Positions 11,118 through 18,864 of a stretch of DNA of 64,000 bases are shown one piece after another. How positions within the stretch are numbered: position 1 is the stretch's first letter; every line of letters begins with the position of its first letter. The notes beneath the pieces were generated by a model. It saw only the letters and a program-made list of their open reading frames with translations. It was not told the origin of the DNA and did not search any database. Position numbers and translations under genes: made by a program. The DNA lies in assembly GCA_035653615.1 (NCBI GenBank), contig DASRBN010000019.1:1-64000 (forward strand). The letters run 5' to 3'. This stretch comes from Ktedonobacteraceae bacterium. Lineage in GTDB: Bacteria > Chloroflexota > Ktedonobacteria > Ktedonobacterales > Ktedonobacteraceae.

Positions 11118-11630
11118 TCAGCGATACAAAAAATATCCCACCACTCCTGCCAGTCCCAGGATCAGCAGGATATTGACCTTGCGACTCAGCGCCAGCCCGA
11201 AGGCGCCCGCTGCAATCAGCAGCCCTTTCCAATCCACACCGGGCTGGCGCAGAATCGTCCACACCACGGCGAGCAGCAGGCCGACAACCGCCAGCGAGAT
11301 ACCATGCATCGCACCCTGCACCCAGGTTCTATGTTCGATACGCCTGTAACCGGCAGAGATGAGCAGCACCAGCAGCGCGGGAATCGTAATCGCAATCAAG
11401 GCCAGCAGCGCCCCCAGATAGCCATAGGTCAGATATCCCAGGCTAATCACCCACAAACCATTCGGACCGGGACTGATCTGGCCGATAGCAATCGATTGCC
11501 CAAAATCCGCCTCCGTTGCCCAGCCATTCGCCAGCAAATCCTGGTGCAAACTCGGCAAATTGCTAAATCCCCCACTCGAAAAAAGCGATGCCTTCAAGAA
11601 CAGCAGGAAGTAAATGAGGGGATTAATCAT
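11118..11630 (-). CDS. chromate transporter, half-size subunit 2
   Basis: Half-size member of the CHR (chromate ion transporter) family, 170 residues with about five to six membrane helices. The family motif GQISPGPNG is present near residue 49. It overlaps the end of the upstream half by 8 bases, so the two products are probably made together and form a heterodimer, as known for split CHR pairs. Family members export chromate; some may move other oxyanions. It converges on the ABC ATPase gene with no strong terminator between. Confidence 0.88.
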   Translation of the reverse strand: MINPLIYFLLFLKASLFSSGGFSNLPSLHQDLLANGWATEADFGQSIAIGQISPGPNGLWVISLGYLTYGYLGALLALIAITIPALLVLLISAGYRRIEHRTWVQGAMHGISLAVVGLLLAVVWTILRQPGVDWKGLLIAAGAFGLALSRKVNILLILGLAGVVGYFLYR

Positions 11631-12243
11631 GCGGCTGCTCCTCCTGCCCTTCCTTCAGTAAAGGCGCAGGACGTGGTGAAAAGAGCAGCGCGCCAAGGAA
11701 TACTGTCCCAATGATGACAATCACAACCGAGAGTTTTAAGAAGATGACCGCTGCCGCGCAGGCAAGCATGAGAATGCCGCTGCCCAGCAAATAGATCATC
11801 CCTTCTTTATAGCCCTTGCGGATCAAAGGCAGCGCGAAATTCAGCCCAACCAGCAGCATGACCCCGCCGGTAGCCGGAACTACTCCCCTCAACACTGCCT
11901 GCACTGCCGCGATGTGTTCTATTTGCTGGAAAAGCGCTGCCAGCAAGCAGGTAATCGCCGCGCTTGGCAGCAGTAATCCGGCCAGAGATGCGAGAATGCC
12001 GCGTGTTCCTCCCAATTTTCTGCCCAGCAGCACTGTCAGCGCCAGCAGATTAATACCGGGAGTCAGCAGGCATAAATTCCACAGGTGCAAAAACTCTTCC
12101 ATCGTGAGCCATTTATGCCGCTCAATAAAAGTACGCTGGATCAAGAAGGTAGTTGATGCCCCACCACCAAAAGACTGCAACCCGATGCCCACCCAGATAC
12201 GAAAAAGCTGCCATATCGTAGGTCTGGGGTCCTGTAATTCCAT
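11623..12243 (-). CDS. chromate transporter, half-size subunit 1
   Basis: First half of the split CHR transporter, 206 residues. It shows the N-terminal family motifs LQSFGGGA (about 19-26) and LLTPGINLLAL (about 54-64); in most members the second reads PGP, here PGI. About five to six hydrophobic helices. AGGAG lies within 10 bases of the ATG. The C-terminal tail is short and polar and overlaps the next gene. Full-length CHR proteins fuse both halves; here they remain separate genes in one operon. Confidence 0.87.
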   Translation of the reverse strand: MELQDPRPTIWQLFRIWVGIGLQSFGGGASTTFLIQRTFIERHKWLTMEEFLHLWNLCLLTPGINLLALTVLLGRKLGGTRGILASLAGLLLPSAAITCLLAALFQQIEHIAAVQAVLRGVVPATGGVMLLVGLNFALPLIRKGYKEGMIYLLGSGILMLACAAAVIFLKLSVVIVIIGTVFLGALLFSPRPAPLLKEGQEEQPHD

Positions 12244-12824: not shown

Positions 12825-13970
12825 TCATCGCTGCTCAATTGGCACGAACCGCAAATTCATTGGCCCCACATACTCGGATTCTGGGCGGATCAGGCGATTG
12901 TTGCCAACCTGCTCCAGGATATGGGCGGTCCAACCTGCCACCCGGCTCGCGGCGAACGTCGGCGTGAACATATCGCCCGGCAAGCCAACCGAGGCCAGCA
13001 GCACAGCGGAATAATACTCGACATTGGTATAGAGACGCCGGCCTGGCTTCTGCTCGTGCAACAACGCCAGCGCCAGTTCTTCGACGTGCCGTGCCAGCGC
13101 GAACTCCTGTGGATCGGCCAGACGTGCCAGCTCGCGTAATTCTTCTGCTCGCGGGTCCTCCGTTTTATAGATTCGATGACCAAAGCCCATCAGGCGCTCA
13201 CCGCGTGCCAGCGCGTTTTTCAGCCACTCTTCAGCCTGCTCCCGCGTCCCAATCGCCTGAAGCATATCGCGCACCTTCGAAGGCGCGCCACCATGCAATG
13301 GTCCTTTCAGCGCTCCAATTGCCGCCACAATTGCTGAAACAATATCCGAACCCGTACTCGCTACAATGCGTGCCGTGAAGGTCGAAGCATTCATACCGTG
13401 ATCGGCCAGCAGGACCAGGTAGGCATCCAGCGCCTTCACATGCTCTTCCTTTGGCACCTGCCCGGTCAGCAGGTAGAGGTAGTTCGCGGCATAGCCAAGC
13501 TCTGGGTGCGATTCCAGTGGTTCCAGTCCATTGCGCAGGCGATGGAAAGCGGCCAGGAAGACCGGAAAGCGAGCAGTCAGCGCGATTGCCTGTTCAAGCG
13601 ACGGCTGGCCATGAATCGTGGCCGCGCCCCACGCCGAGACTGCTGTGCGCAGCGCGTCCATCGGTTCGGTTGTCGCCGGCAAATTTCTCAACACCTGCAA
13701 AACGTCTGCTGGCATGCTGCGTTCCGCCAGTAAGCGCACTTTCAAATCCACCAGCTGCGTCCTGTTTGGCAGTTGTCCAAACCACAGCAGGTAAGCGATT
13801 TCCTCAAACGAGGTAGTGCGGGCGAGATCATGGATGTTGTATCCACGATAAATCAGCCGTCCCTCCGTTCCCTCCACCTTGCTCAACGCCGTTGTTGCCG
13901 CGACCACCCCCTCTAAACCACCTCGATTTTGCCTCGGTTCTTGAATCGCTGTCGATGTCTCCGCTGTCAT
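12825..13970 (-). CDS. citrate synthase / 2-methylcitrate synthase family
   Basis: Condenses acetyl-CoA (or propionyl-CoA) with oxaloacetate. The catalytic motifs are present: HGMNAST (His), GALKGPLHGGAP and MGFGHRIYK with the CoA-binding EDPR. The third acidic residue appears as Glu in TNVEYYSA, where classical enzymes have Asp; I recall Glu there in a citrate/methylcitrate subgroup. The ATG at 13970 is chosen for GGAG about 10 bases upstream and because it gives 381 residues, the usual size; the frame is open further upstream but without a ribosome site. A divergent HTH gene lies 244 bases away. Sequence does not decide between citrate and methylcitrate synthesis. Confidence 0.9.
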   Translation of the reverse strand: MTAETSTAIQEPRQNRGGLEGVVAATTALSKVEGTEGRLIYRGYNIHDLARTTSFEEIAYLLWFGQLPNRTQLVDLKVRLLAERSMPADVLQVLRNLPATTEPMDALRTAVSAWGAATIHGQPSLEQAIALTARFPVFLAAFHRLRNGLEPLESHPELGYAANYLYLLTGQVPKEEHVKALDAYLVLLADHGMNASTFTARIVASTGSDIVSAIVAAIGALKGPLHGGAPSKVRDMLQAIGTREQAEEWLKNALARGERLMGFGHRIYKTEDPRAEELRELARLADPQEFALARHVEELALALLHEQKPGRRLYTNVEYYSAVLLASVGLPGDMFTPTFAASRVAGWTAHILEQVGNNRLIRPESEYVGPMNLRFVPIEQR

Positions 13971-14128
13971 TTTAGTTTGCTCCTTTGCTTTTGCGGAAAA
14001 CCAACGGTTTACATTTAACTCGCTGTACTTAGGTATTACCATGAATTTCTATGAAAGTCAATGGTTATTGATGATAATCGATAATACTTGATTTATATTG
14101 ATTTCATTCGACGCGATACCCAAAATGG

Positions 14129-14158
14129 TTGACAAAATTGCCTGTACTTCCCTATTAT
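14129..14158 (+). promoter_or_regulatory. promoter for the HTH gene
   Basis: TTGACA 14129-14134, 18-bp spacer, TATTAT 14153-14158. The neighbouring AT-rich stretch 14063-14090 (TTATTGATGATAATCGATAA) has partial dyad symmetry and could be an operator shared with the divergent citrate synthase gene. Confidence 0.7.
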
Positions 14159-14214
14159 GTAGATAGAAGATTAGATAGCAGGAACATGATGTACTTGCAG
14201 GAAAAAGGCAGACG

Positions 14215-14508
14215 ATGATCGAGCTAGACGGTGAAAACTACCTGGATGGTAACGAAGCCAGCCGCTTGCTGGGCGTGAAGATGTCGACGCTTTACGCCTA
14301 CGTGAGCAGGGGGATTCTCAAAAGCTACAAACAGGGCATCAAGCGGCAGCGCCTCTACAAGCAGGCCGAGCTTGAGGCTTTACTGCGCCTGCGTCCCAGC
14401 GATGTTCCTCTGCCGCAGACTCCTCCAAAGCAGACCAGAGATGATGCCGCGCCACAAAGAAAACTCACCGAAATCCCGCTCGCCGAGGACTGGATTCCAT
14501 ATACATAA
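14215..14508 (+). CDS. stand-alone HTH domain, divergent from citrate synthase
   Basis: Small 97-residue DNA-binding protein of the MerR/excisionase-like HTH class. Residues 9-55 form the domain: NYLDGNEASRLLGVK, then STLYAYVSRG as recognition helix, then a basic wing with KRQRLYKQ. The tail is proline-rich. From memory, the same LLGV...TLYAYVSRG module occurs fused to the front of some citrate synthases in other bacteria; here it is a separate, divergent gene. It most likely regulates the citrate synthase gene or binds its product. The ATG at 14215 has only a weak AGGAAAAAGG ribosome site. Confidence 0.75.
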   Translation: MIELDGENYLDGNEASRLLGVKMSTLYAYVSRGILKSYKQGIKRQRLYKQAELEALLRLRPSDVPLPQTPPKQTRDDAAPQRKLTEIPLAEDWIPYT

Positions 14509-14609: not shown

Positions 14610-14686
14610 CCGTGTCATTCTGAGCGCAGCGAAGAATCTCTGGCGCAATGGACACAGATTCTTCGCTCTCGCTCAGAATGACACGG
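14610..14686. repeat. palindromic repeat family A, copy 2
   Basis: Inverted arms 14610-14639 and 14656-14686 of about 30 bp, one arm with a small insertion (GCGAGAG for GCGCAG). Placed between two convergent genes, where it could also act as a bidirectional terminator. Confidence 0.85.
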
Positions 14687-14726
14687 CTGAACCAGTCGGA
14701 TGACCGGTTTTGATCGTGAAAATTCA

Positions 14727-17559: not shown

Positions 17560-17673
17560 CATAATAGTAAATATTACCATATAAATGGGGAATTTTCAAG
17601 AGGAACATCAGCGGAGGTTACCAGAAGTTCGTTAGCTCGGATGAAGTGACTCAGCTTAATGTAAGGAGGGAGG

Positions 17674-17700
17674 GATTCTTCGCTGCGCTCAGAATGACAT
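17674..17700. repeat. palindromic repeat family A, single arm
   Basis: One arm only of the family A box (GATTCTTCGCTGCGCTCAGA followed by ATGACAT). The partner arm is missing, so this copy is decayed or a half unit. Confidence 0.75.
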
Positions 17701-17727
17701 GGCCCCCGCGGTCCTCAAGCGTTCGGA

Positions 17728-18864
17728 TTATCTTCCCGCCGCGAAGAAAACCGTCCAGCTGCCCTCGGCCCATTCCGCCGTCAGCGAGTAGCAGCCGGCC
17801 GCGGGAATATACACATTCGTGTTTATGATGATCCATGACCCATTATCGATAGTGTGGCTCGAGAGGGTTGGATCAGAGGGATCTAAGAGGAGAAGAGCGG
17901 TCACTCCCTGGCCCGAGGGGACGCTATCAAGGAAGACCGGCGCATCGTTGTCGTTGCTGGCGCCCTCCAGCACGACAACATTTGTGTAGTTGGATTGCAA
18001 TAGCAGCGTGATTGGCTCGTACCAGCCCAGGCTGCTCCGTTGTGAGCGCTTGAGCTGCGTCAAAGCTGCCCCATTTTTATCGAGACCGCTGATCCAGAGA
18101 GGTGGGCGTCCAATAGCACCAGGCTCAGGCCCTGCATTGGAACTTGACCCGGTACTACCGGGACAGTATTGGGGAGCAGCCTCTAGCGGGTCTTGAATGG
18201 GTGTTACCTGTGATGAATAGATTCCCTGGTGCCAGGTAAATTTGTTGGCAGGCGAGGAGCCGATGAATCTGCCGGAGCCGCTTACGGCAGAAGGGCCGCC
18301 AGATGTCAGCGTTGCATTGCTGTTTGTAGTAGGGGTCGCAGTTGATCCGGTCAATAAGCTCAAAGCGCCATTCCAGGCTGATGGCATTCCTTCCAGCATA
18401 ACCATAATTACCAGTATTGCGACAAATACCGCCGTAATCAGCGACAGAGCCTGTCTCCGGCGTTCCCGAGGTGAAAAGCGAGTAACCAGGGATGTAAGAG
18501 GCCTCGCCACCAGAAAAGATGGCTGTTTTTCACCCTCCGGCAGGTCGCTAATCTCCAGCTCAAAATCGTCATCGCTCTCCCCGGATTCAGGTGGGGTGTA
18601 GGAACCAGATTGATCGCGTCCAGGATGGGGCCGTCCTCGCCATGCCCTGAAATTAGCCAGCAAGGAGTCAACCTTGCCATCCGGCGGCAGATCGGTGATC
18701 TTCACATCGAAATCATCATCGCCGTCTAATTCAGCTGCATCTATTTCGTTCTCTCCGTCAAAATCGCCTGTTCCTGAGTGAGACCATAAATGTATATTCT
18801 TGCTATCCTCGTCCTTGAAATTGAAATCATCATCCATCTCATCGTTGTTTTTGAGATTGTGCAT
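17728..18864 (-). CDS. single-pass membrane protein, unknown function
   Basis: No family is recognised. The product of 378 residues has a strongly acidic cytoplasmic half (runs such as MDDDFNFKDEDS and AELDGDDDFDVK), a membrane segment near residue 172-192 (ALSLITAVFVAILVIMVML), then a Ser/Gly/Thr-rich exported part with a possible compact domain of about 150 residues. It is the last gene after MoxR and DUF58. The ATG at 18864 is preferred over the GTG at 18879 because AGGAGAGG lies just before it. Its context suggests a surface or envelope role linked to the MoxR-DUF58 pair; this is inference. Confidence 0.65.
   Translation of the reverse strand: MHNLKNNDEMDDDFNFKDEDSKNIHLWSHSGTGDFDGENEIDAAELDGDDDFDVKITDLPPDGKVDSLLANFRAWRGRPHPGRDQSGSYTPPESGESDDDFELEISDLPEGEKQPSFLVARPLTSLVTRFSPRERRRQALSLITAVFVAILVIMVMLEGMPSAWNGALSLLTGSTATPTTNSNATLTSGGPSAVSGSGRFIGSSPANKFTWHQGIYSSQVTPIQDPLEAAPQYCPGSTGSSSNAGPEPGAIGRPPLWISGLDKNGAALTQLKRSQRSSLGWYEPITLLLQSNYTNVVVLEGASNDNDAPVFLDSVPSGQGVTALLLLDPSDPTLSSHTIDNGSWIIINTNVYIPAAGCYSLTAEWAEGSWTVFFAAGR

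Follow-up and report, generated by a model that had tools for sequence, protein, structure and literature searches.

The window analyzed here is a 64,000-nt stretch of contig C19 (G000:C19) in a Ktedonobacteraceae genome of 6.59 Mb. At positions 14215–14508 of the forward strand it carries a gene for a BldC-like HTH protein of 97 aa (start ATG at 14215), recognized from the ORF list, Pfam, relatives and the predicted fold. A genuine citrate synthase (CS) gene lies on the reverse strand at 12825–13970, and the two genes diverge from a gap of 244 bases (13971–14214), as described in the original prediction. As eight relatives of the HTH ORF, with 54–65% identity over the best segment, are found in the GTDB contig collection, and in seven of these eight a CS gene lies immediately upstream on the opposite strand, the ORF is not a chance one; the named relatives belong to Dictyobacter and other Ktedonobacteria. 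Elsewhere in the window, two adjoining half-length chromate transporter genes with one Chromate_transp domain each occupy 11121–12243 of the reverse strand, and repeat-like stretches at about 14612–14687 and at 17651–17836 have ORF translations reading VILSAAKN (by eye). By eye, the stretch near the HTH gene resembles an inverted repeat and may represent a small mobile element.

In the 97-aa protein Pfam identifies only HTH-type domains, so that it does not combine HTH and Citrate_synt in one chain. The HTH_17 match spans residues 9–58 (3.5e-10, above the curated cut-off), the MerR-like PF13411 is barely over its cut-off (22.5 vs. 21.6), and PF00376 is under its own. AlphaFold (AF2) models residues 1–60 with confidence as a winged HTH (block means of pLDDT 82–91), followed by a low-confidence, disordered-looking tail without a helix (mean pLDDT 73). 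In a Foldseek search with this model, ranks 1–6 and 8 are BldC–DNA complexes (6ama/6amk; TMt 0.80–0.86, 25–30% identity), none of the matches reaching E 0.001 (the best is 1.9e-3); the predicted fold is closest to BldC. At the sequence level, a search of PDB sequences with the HTH profile up to E 1 retrieved only SoxR (E 0.25), and not BldC. The C-terminal tail, EIPLAEDWIPYT (14470–14505), is mostly of the P-x-A-E-x-W type in the standalone HTH proteins described below, with an almost invariant W; as this residue is kept within the last nine positions in 56 of 58 of them, the tail is probably under selection.

The CS gene encodes a CitA-like protein of 381 aa with a full-length PF00285 match (1.3e-127, 426 bits, over the cut-off). 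It exceeds the NF009005 cut-off (369 vs. 332 bits) and is slightly below that of TIGR01800 (418.7 vs. 421.3). The nearest PDB structure is Bacillus subtilis CitA (2c6x, 3.1e-109), which also has Glu at the position of the catalytic Asp. In the alignment, the catalytic residues H191, H226, H265, R274, R343, and R362 of the window CS are present, with E318 replacing Asp. The same Glu is observed in 14 of 16 aligned CS partners of standalone or fused HTH proteins, while the canonical paralogue has Asp; in the window's own genome this second CS is encoded on contig C15 and is 47% identical to the window CS. Contig C12 contains a short CS-like ORF, and no fused HTH–CS protein is present among the CS matches of this genome.

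A profile built from nine HTH sequences was compared with 400 Chloroflexota genomes, yielding matches in 84 of them, and all listed matches were classed. The 58 standalone HTH matches, many of which are close relatives, comprise 31 divergent to a CS gene, 11 divergent to an HMGL-like gene (homocitrate/isopropylmalate synthase superfamily), and 16 adjacent to neither. Neighbours in the latter set, named by eye, include acc genes (L022, the same locus as L013), a RibD-like gene (L023), a hydrolase gene (f4), and urease genes (f46 g104). The 58 include three loci from the GTDB contig search, both frames of the broken gene L097 (counted twice), and the truncated L085. Left out were relatives with weak E-values (L002/L090, L072, L081, L084, L098, L099, L106, L108, L116), by eye generic HTH_17-type proteins in other settings, as well as loci L003–L008 of the own genome and near-copies (L001, L009, L012–L015, L019).

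We considered a replacement of CS by the HMGL-like gene as a Re-citrate synthase and rejected it, PF00285 being present in all 39 genomes tested, including all 11 with HMGL linkage. Two HMGL-like proteins score 131 and 140, far below the homocitrate synthase cut-off of 463. The HMGL-like enzyme family (ETTHRDGQQGG or DTTFRDGQQAR) is tied to the regulator in both Chloroflexota and Deinococcus (L080, L196, L118, and others).

The same HTH module is found attached to CS-like domains. Codons 14284–14313 of the window gene encode the helix-turn-helix stretch STLYAYVSRG (residues 24–33), which alignment, tblastn and inspection by eye show to be common to fused HTH–CS proteins, as the original prediction had supposed for its TLYAYVSRG part. 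A tblastn search of a plasmid collection with the window HTH matched 12 records; seven of the ten rows listed are annotated as citrate synthase (family) proteins, and an eighth (H46) coincides with a match (H3) of a fused query. The existence of fused proteins, assumed in that prediction, holds: in all seven scanned, HTH_17 and Citrate_synt both exceed the Pfam cut-offs. Among the listed matches in the 400 Chloroflexota genomes, 35 have both domains in one frame, again with many close relatives (f24, f43) and thus not as independent events; 18 of these genes diverge from a separate CS gene and eight from an HMGL-like gene, two have a CS gene at the 3′ side, and seven face other genes, four of them with MFS and isochorismatase-like neighbours (by eye). 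A fused query matched 97 plasmid records, and in 41 of them the match spans 80% or more of its length. All seven opened plasmid loci carry fused genes, with partners encoding CS (Agrobacterium pAt), pyruvate carboxyltransferase (two Deinococcus), CoA transferase (two), a GudP transporter, and a DUF2332 protein. So, all four combinations of the two regulator forms with the two target enzymes, CS and HMGL, occur, and the HMGL partners of both forms are homologous (38–42% identity, three compared).

One CS facing an HTH–CS gene (L079, 3669–5174) has N-terminal CBS domains according to Pfam, scanned for this one member, and the other partners in f43 are of equal length; this architecture suggests nucleotide control of the enzyme.

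The original prediction spoke of a split; the change may have been fission or fusion. In the HTH tree, which is unrooted and has few columns, a single branch (support 95/93) divides the 42 fused rows from the 67 standalone ones, with generic HTH_17 proteins grouping among the latter, and there is no sign of recent fission.

Upstream regions of the fused genes contain a conserved inverted repeat, TTGAT-N4..7-ATCAA. Of the 42 regions, 33 contain it in exact form (shuffle mean 0.1) and 37 with at most one mismatch (shuffle mean 2.1), the repeat being absent in exact form from nine regions and even at one mismatch from five. Direct pairs of the same half-site are never exact in these 42 regions, and at up to one mismatch they occur in three (shuffle mean 1.4). 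The inverted repeat is likewise seen at all seven plasmid loci, which belong to Deinococcota, Alpha- and Betaproteobacteria. In L123 it has one mismatch, and in L119 its only copy lies downstream of the annotated start, for which reason this locus was counted as lacking it in the 42-region tally.

Could the fused proteins be plain citrate synthases with a remnant domain and no regulatory role? Catalytic residues lend this reading some weight. H262, R271, D/E312, R337, and R356, in type II CS numbering, are present in all 42 aligned fused domains, and H187 and H222 in most, so that the majority retain H222, H262, and D/E312 together. Still, we consider it improbable, because of the operators: conserved inverted repeats accompany the promoters of fused genes in Chloroflexota, Deinococcota, and Pseudomonadota. 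Moreover, four scanned fused proteins reach only 116–175 bits with TIGR01800 against the cut-off of 421, a low likeness to true CS, and H187 and H222 are both lost in five members (L077, L086, L087, L100, L101), with single replacements by Gln at H222 in L105 and at H187 in L124. Judging from these residues, the proteins lacking both histidines are likely pure sensors, and many of the others might still be enzymes. Four of the five are located beside MFS and isochorismatase-like genes (by eye).

The standalone form is associated with a different arrangement, direct repeats TTGAT-N5-TTGAT with 10-bp spacing. In the window, an array scan gives a proposed operator of five T[TC]GA[TC] units on the forward strand at 14068–14112, starting at 14068, 14078, 14088, 14098, and 14108, that is, in exact 10-bp steps. 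A candidate CS promoter, found by comparison and absent from the list of the consensus promoter scan, occupies 14033–14061 of the reverse strand (−35 TTGACT at 14061–14056, 17-bp spacer, −10 TAATAC at 14038–14033), the proposed operator ending 6 bp upstream of its −35 box. The consensus scan gives a candidate HTH promoter, TTGACA-N18-TATTAT, with 11 of 12 consensus positions at 14129–14158 of the forward strand.

To score arrays, the best four-unit array with period 10 in a region was compared with those in 200 dinucleotide-preserving shuffles, and scores are given as the number of shuffles not beaten. In 27 of 31 HTH/CS regions all 200 shuffles are beaten, the exceptions being L042 (1), L069 (1), L059 (2), and L064 (5). 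Period 10 is strictly the best among periods 8–13 in 29 of the 31, with a tie with period 8 in L064 and a better period 8 in L059. Since the motif was initially read by eye from 18 CS-linked regions, the counts on these are partly circular; in the remaining set of 13, L027 and L031 are near relatives of L028, and among the resulting 11 fresh regions nine score 0 of 200. Direct pairs in the 31 standalone/CS regions are exact in 17 and have at most one mismatch in 29, while inverted pairs are exact in none and appear in four at up to one mismatch (shuffle mean 2.6).

The array is located between the two candidate promoters of the window, and small HTH proteins often regulate their own genes, so it might be an autoregulatory site of the HTH gene, with the CS linkage being passive. 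Genomes in which the two genes are apart make this very improbable. In nine genomes with the HTH gene not adjacent to CS (1.8 kb away in G346, on another contig in G286), the array is found at the CS promoter with the same polarity, scoring 0 in L125, L126, and L184 (G212), 1 in L131, 2 in L127, 3 in L129, 4 in L130, 11 in L128, and 15 in L132; the last two, which have two units only, are statistically marginal. Upstream of the HTH genes of these genomes, no array is seen at the eight loci scored (L022, L023, L046–L048, L050, L051, L055; 49–196 of 200), the ninth (L070, G212) being at a contig edge, and L022 and L023 keep a TTGACAAAAT-type promoter (by eye) before the HTH gene. Eleven CS loci expected to be uncontrolled (L133–L140, L142–L144) score 34–198. 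One CS of G126, a genome with the HTH gene beside urease genes, scores 0 (L141), which fits the pattern of an array at CS, and the HTH loci of its genus (L061, L065, L066, L068) score 44–199. Besides, in G116, where the standalone HTH faces CS (L026), a scan of 29 genomes of the family for the array revealed a four-unit one (0 of 200) just upstream of an HMGL-like gene far from the HTH gene; an array before the HMGL gene is also present in G314 of the same genus (0 of 200). Judged by these comparisons, the direct-repeat array belongs to CS rather than to HTH, and plain autoregulation as the main role of the HTH protein was rejected on this ground. The control of CS by the HTH protein, as originally predicted, is strongly supported by the comparison, through both the conserved linkage and a motif found at the CS promoter even where the HTH gene is elsewhere.

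On another reading, the HTH protein would act broadly, as a nucleoid or excisionase-like protein for which CS is one of many targets. Its HTH_17 and excisionase-type matches, the 54 one-mismatch arrays in those 29 genomes (vs. ten for the reversed pattern), and some homologues beside urease, acc, or hydrolase genes could indicate this, but it is most improbable, given a TIGR01764 score of 24.3 bits below the cut-off of 28.8, CS or HMGL linkage in 42 of 58 standalone matches, and the fact that the sole two one-mismatch matches of the three-unit array in the own genome (6.59 Mb) both lie at the window CS (14068–14102).

At up to two mismatches, the own genome contains 20 array matches compared to six for the reversed pattern. 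A second TTGAT-like array with period 10 is seen there at C16:36769–36803 (L154, L191), between an ORF of 228 aa and an ORF with a MerR-like start; a second target is possible at this site. In the family-wide scan, six more array matches (L185–L188, L190, L191) are found beside other genes, and a two-step pattern at L189 did not recur; therefore some of these sites are chance matches or further targets.

As judged from the repeats, the two forms would use one half-site, TTGAT, in direct orientation with the standalone HTH and in inverted orientation with the fused HTH–CS. This can be followed at a single target, the HMGL gene of the window's family. In five genomes where it faces an HTH–CS gene, its promoter has an inverted repeat with an N6 spacer (exact in L192, L197, and L198, variants in L193 and L194) and no direct array (9–153 of 200). 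At two HMGL promoters with no fused gene next to them (L195, L196), period-10 arrays score 0 of 200 each, and a looser inverted pattern matches there too. Thus, the regulator form and the operator geometry change together at HMGL. In the families with a standalone HTH beside HMGL (f18, f52, and f27) the repeats are weak and may be of either geometry: array scores are 0–9 of 200, one of the 11 regions has an exact direct pair (shuffle mean 0) and two have a direct pair with at most one mismatch (shuffle mean 0.15), and inverted pairs within one mismatch are seen in 3 of 11 (shuffle mean 0.38, maximum 3). No site was found at eight tested CS loci of these families.

The positions of the repeats relative to candidate promoters were also compared. 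Of 37 inverted repeats in the fused regions, 31 lie 2 bp from a TTGAC and four lie 4 bp from one, and the mean score of −10-like hexamers at the 17-bp spacing is 2.87, compared to 0.80–1.77 at other spacings (n = 30). In the direct-array regions, the gap to the −35 box is 6 bp in 10 of 31, the window included; among 15 direct-array loci chosen for this gap, the −10 score again peaks at 17 bp (2.87 vs. 0.87–1.93). Both features therefore place the operator just upstream of the candidate −35 box of the partner gene.

The original prediction took the fused form for an autoregulator. An inverted repeat near the start of the fused gene itself is compatible with that, but the gene mostly faces a separate enzyme gene, and as the repeat abuts the candidate −35 box of this partner, regulation of the divergent partner is at least as likely, so far as can be judged from the site positions.

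For the sign of control, we lean slightly towards activation in the window's family. In f3/f4, two repeats directly follow a TGGACA-like hexamer in nine of ten loci, with a TATAAT-like hexamer at 17 bp in seven of nine; this placement inside the −35/−10 spacer suggests repression. The sign may differ between the families, or control may be repression throughout.

Very probably, the window gene encodes a BldC-like regulator dedicated to CS and acting on direct repeats, with a fused sister form acting on an inverted repeat. As a transcription factor, the HTH protein would serve citrate formation specifically; several of its copies would bind head to tail on the TTGAT repeats, one helical turn apart, and the bound array just upstream of the CS −35 box would set CS transcription. 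In the sister form the same HTH would be carried by a CS-like domain, and, since CS domains dimerize, it would bind the inverted pair TTGAT-N4..7-ATCAA and regulate the divergent gene, often that of CS or the HMGL-like enzyme; a substrate or product would presumably be sensed by the CS-like domain. A more elaborate version, in which the unfused HTH forms a head-to-tail polymer whose tail (LPxAExWIP) docks the CS or HMGL-like enzyme as a sensor in trans for the enzyme's own gene, the fused form being a metabolite-sensing dimer on an inverted repeat, is conceivable and rather unlikely.

The preferred reading, a dedicated regulator in two forms, offers a predicted operator for both and points to likely control of the TCA cycle entry in Chloroflexota. 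Operators are inverted where the regulator has a dimeric domain and direct where it lacks one, which makes a natural experiment, and the proposed connection of metabolism with gene control is now open to laboratory tests. Moreover, in several phyla, database entries named "citrate synthase family protein" probably represent transcription factors that contain a citrate-synthase-like domain. An HTH–citrate synthase regulator was not found in the full texts of open-licence PMC papers.

Partial parallels are provided by several known systems. The minor citrate synthase gene citA of B. subtilis has a dedicated divergent regulator, CitR, of the LysR type. The window locus resembles this pair in having a CitA-like CS with Glu for Asp and a divergent dedicated regulator, but the regulator families are unrelated. 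In the MocR/GabR regulators, an HTH domain is fused to an aminotransferase fold, so that an enzyme fold serves as both the sensor and the dimerizer of a transcription factor, as proposed here for HTH–CS; the latter differs in having the citrate synthase fold, an HTH of the BldC/MerR type, and an unfused sister form. Classical MerR proteins have a C-terminal coiled-coil/effector region and a palindromic site. The window HTH has neither, and with its 97 aa, a predicted tail without helices, and exact inverted sites in none of the 31 regions, it falls outside this class.

The closest counterpart is BldC. Like members of the BldC family, the window HTH has a MerR-like winged HTH without a coiled coil or effector domain. 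Streptomyces BldC is described as binding head to tail on 9-bp direct repeats (PMC5859096). Both are small lone winged-HTH proteins associated with direct repeats spaced by about one turn with AT-rich parts (PMC5859096), but the window repeat is 10 bp, not 9, and the half-site is TTGAT, compared to AATTxxxxC for BldC. Besides, the window family has a conserved C-terminal tail and apparently a dedicated metabolic target, whereas BldC controls a developmental regulon.

Finally, Caulobacter has two CS-like genes, citB and citC, with consecutive locus tags (PMC7083601). According to that paper, CitB complements an Escherichia coli gltA mutant, and CitC fails to do so (PMC7083601). This failure is as expected if CitC were an HTH–CS regulator, and citC and citB may be an HTH–CS/CS pair. 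A regulatory role of HTH–CS proteins may thus explain why CS paralogues such as CitC fail to complement.
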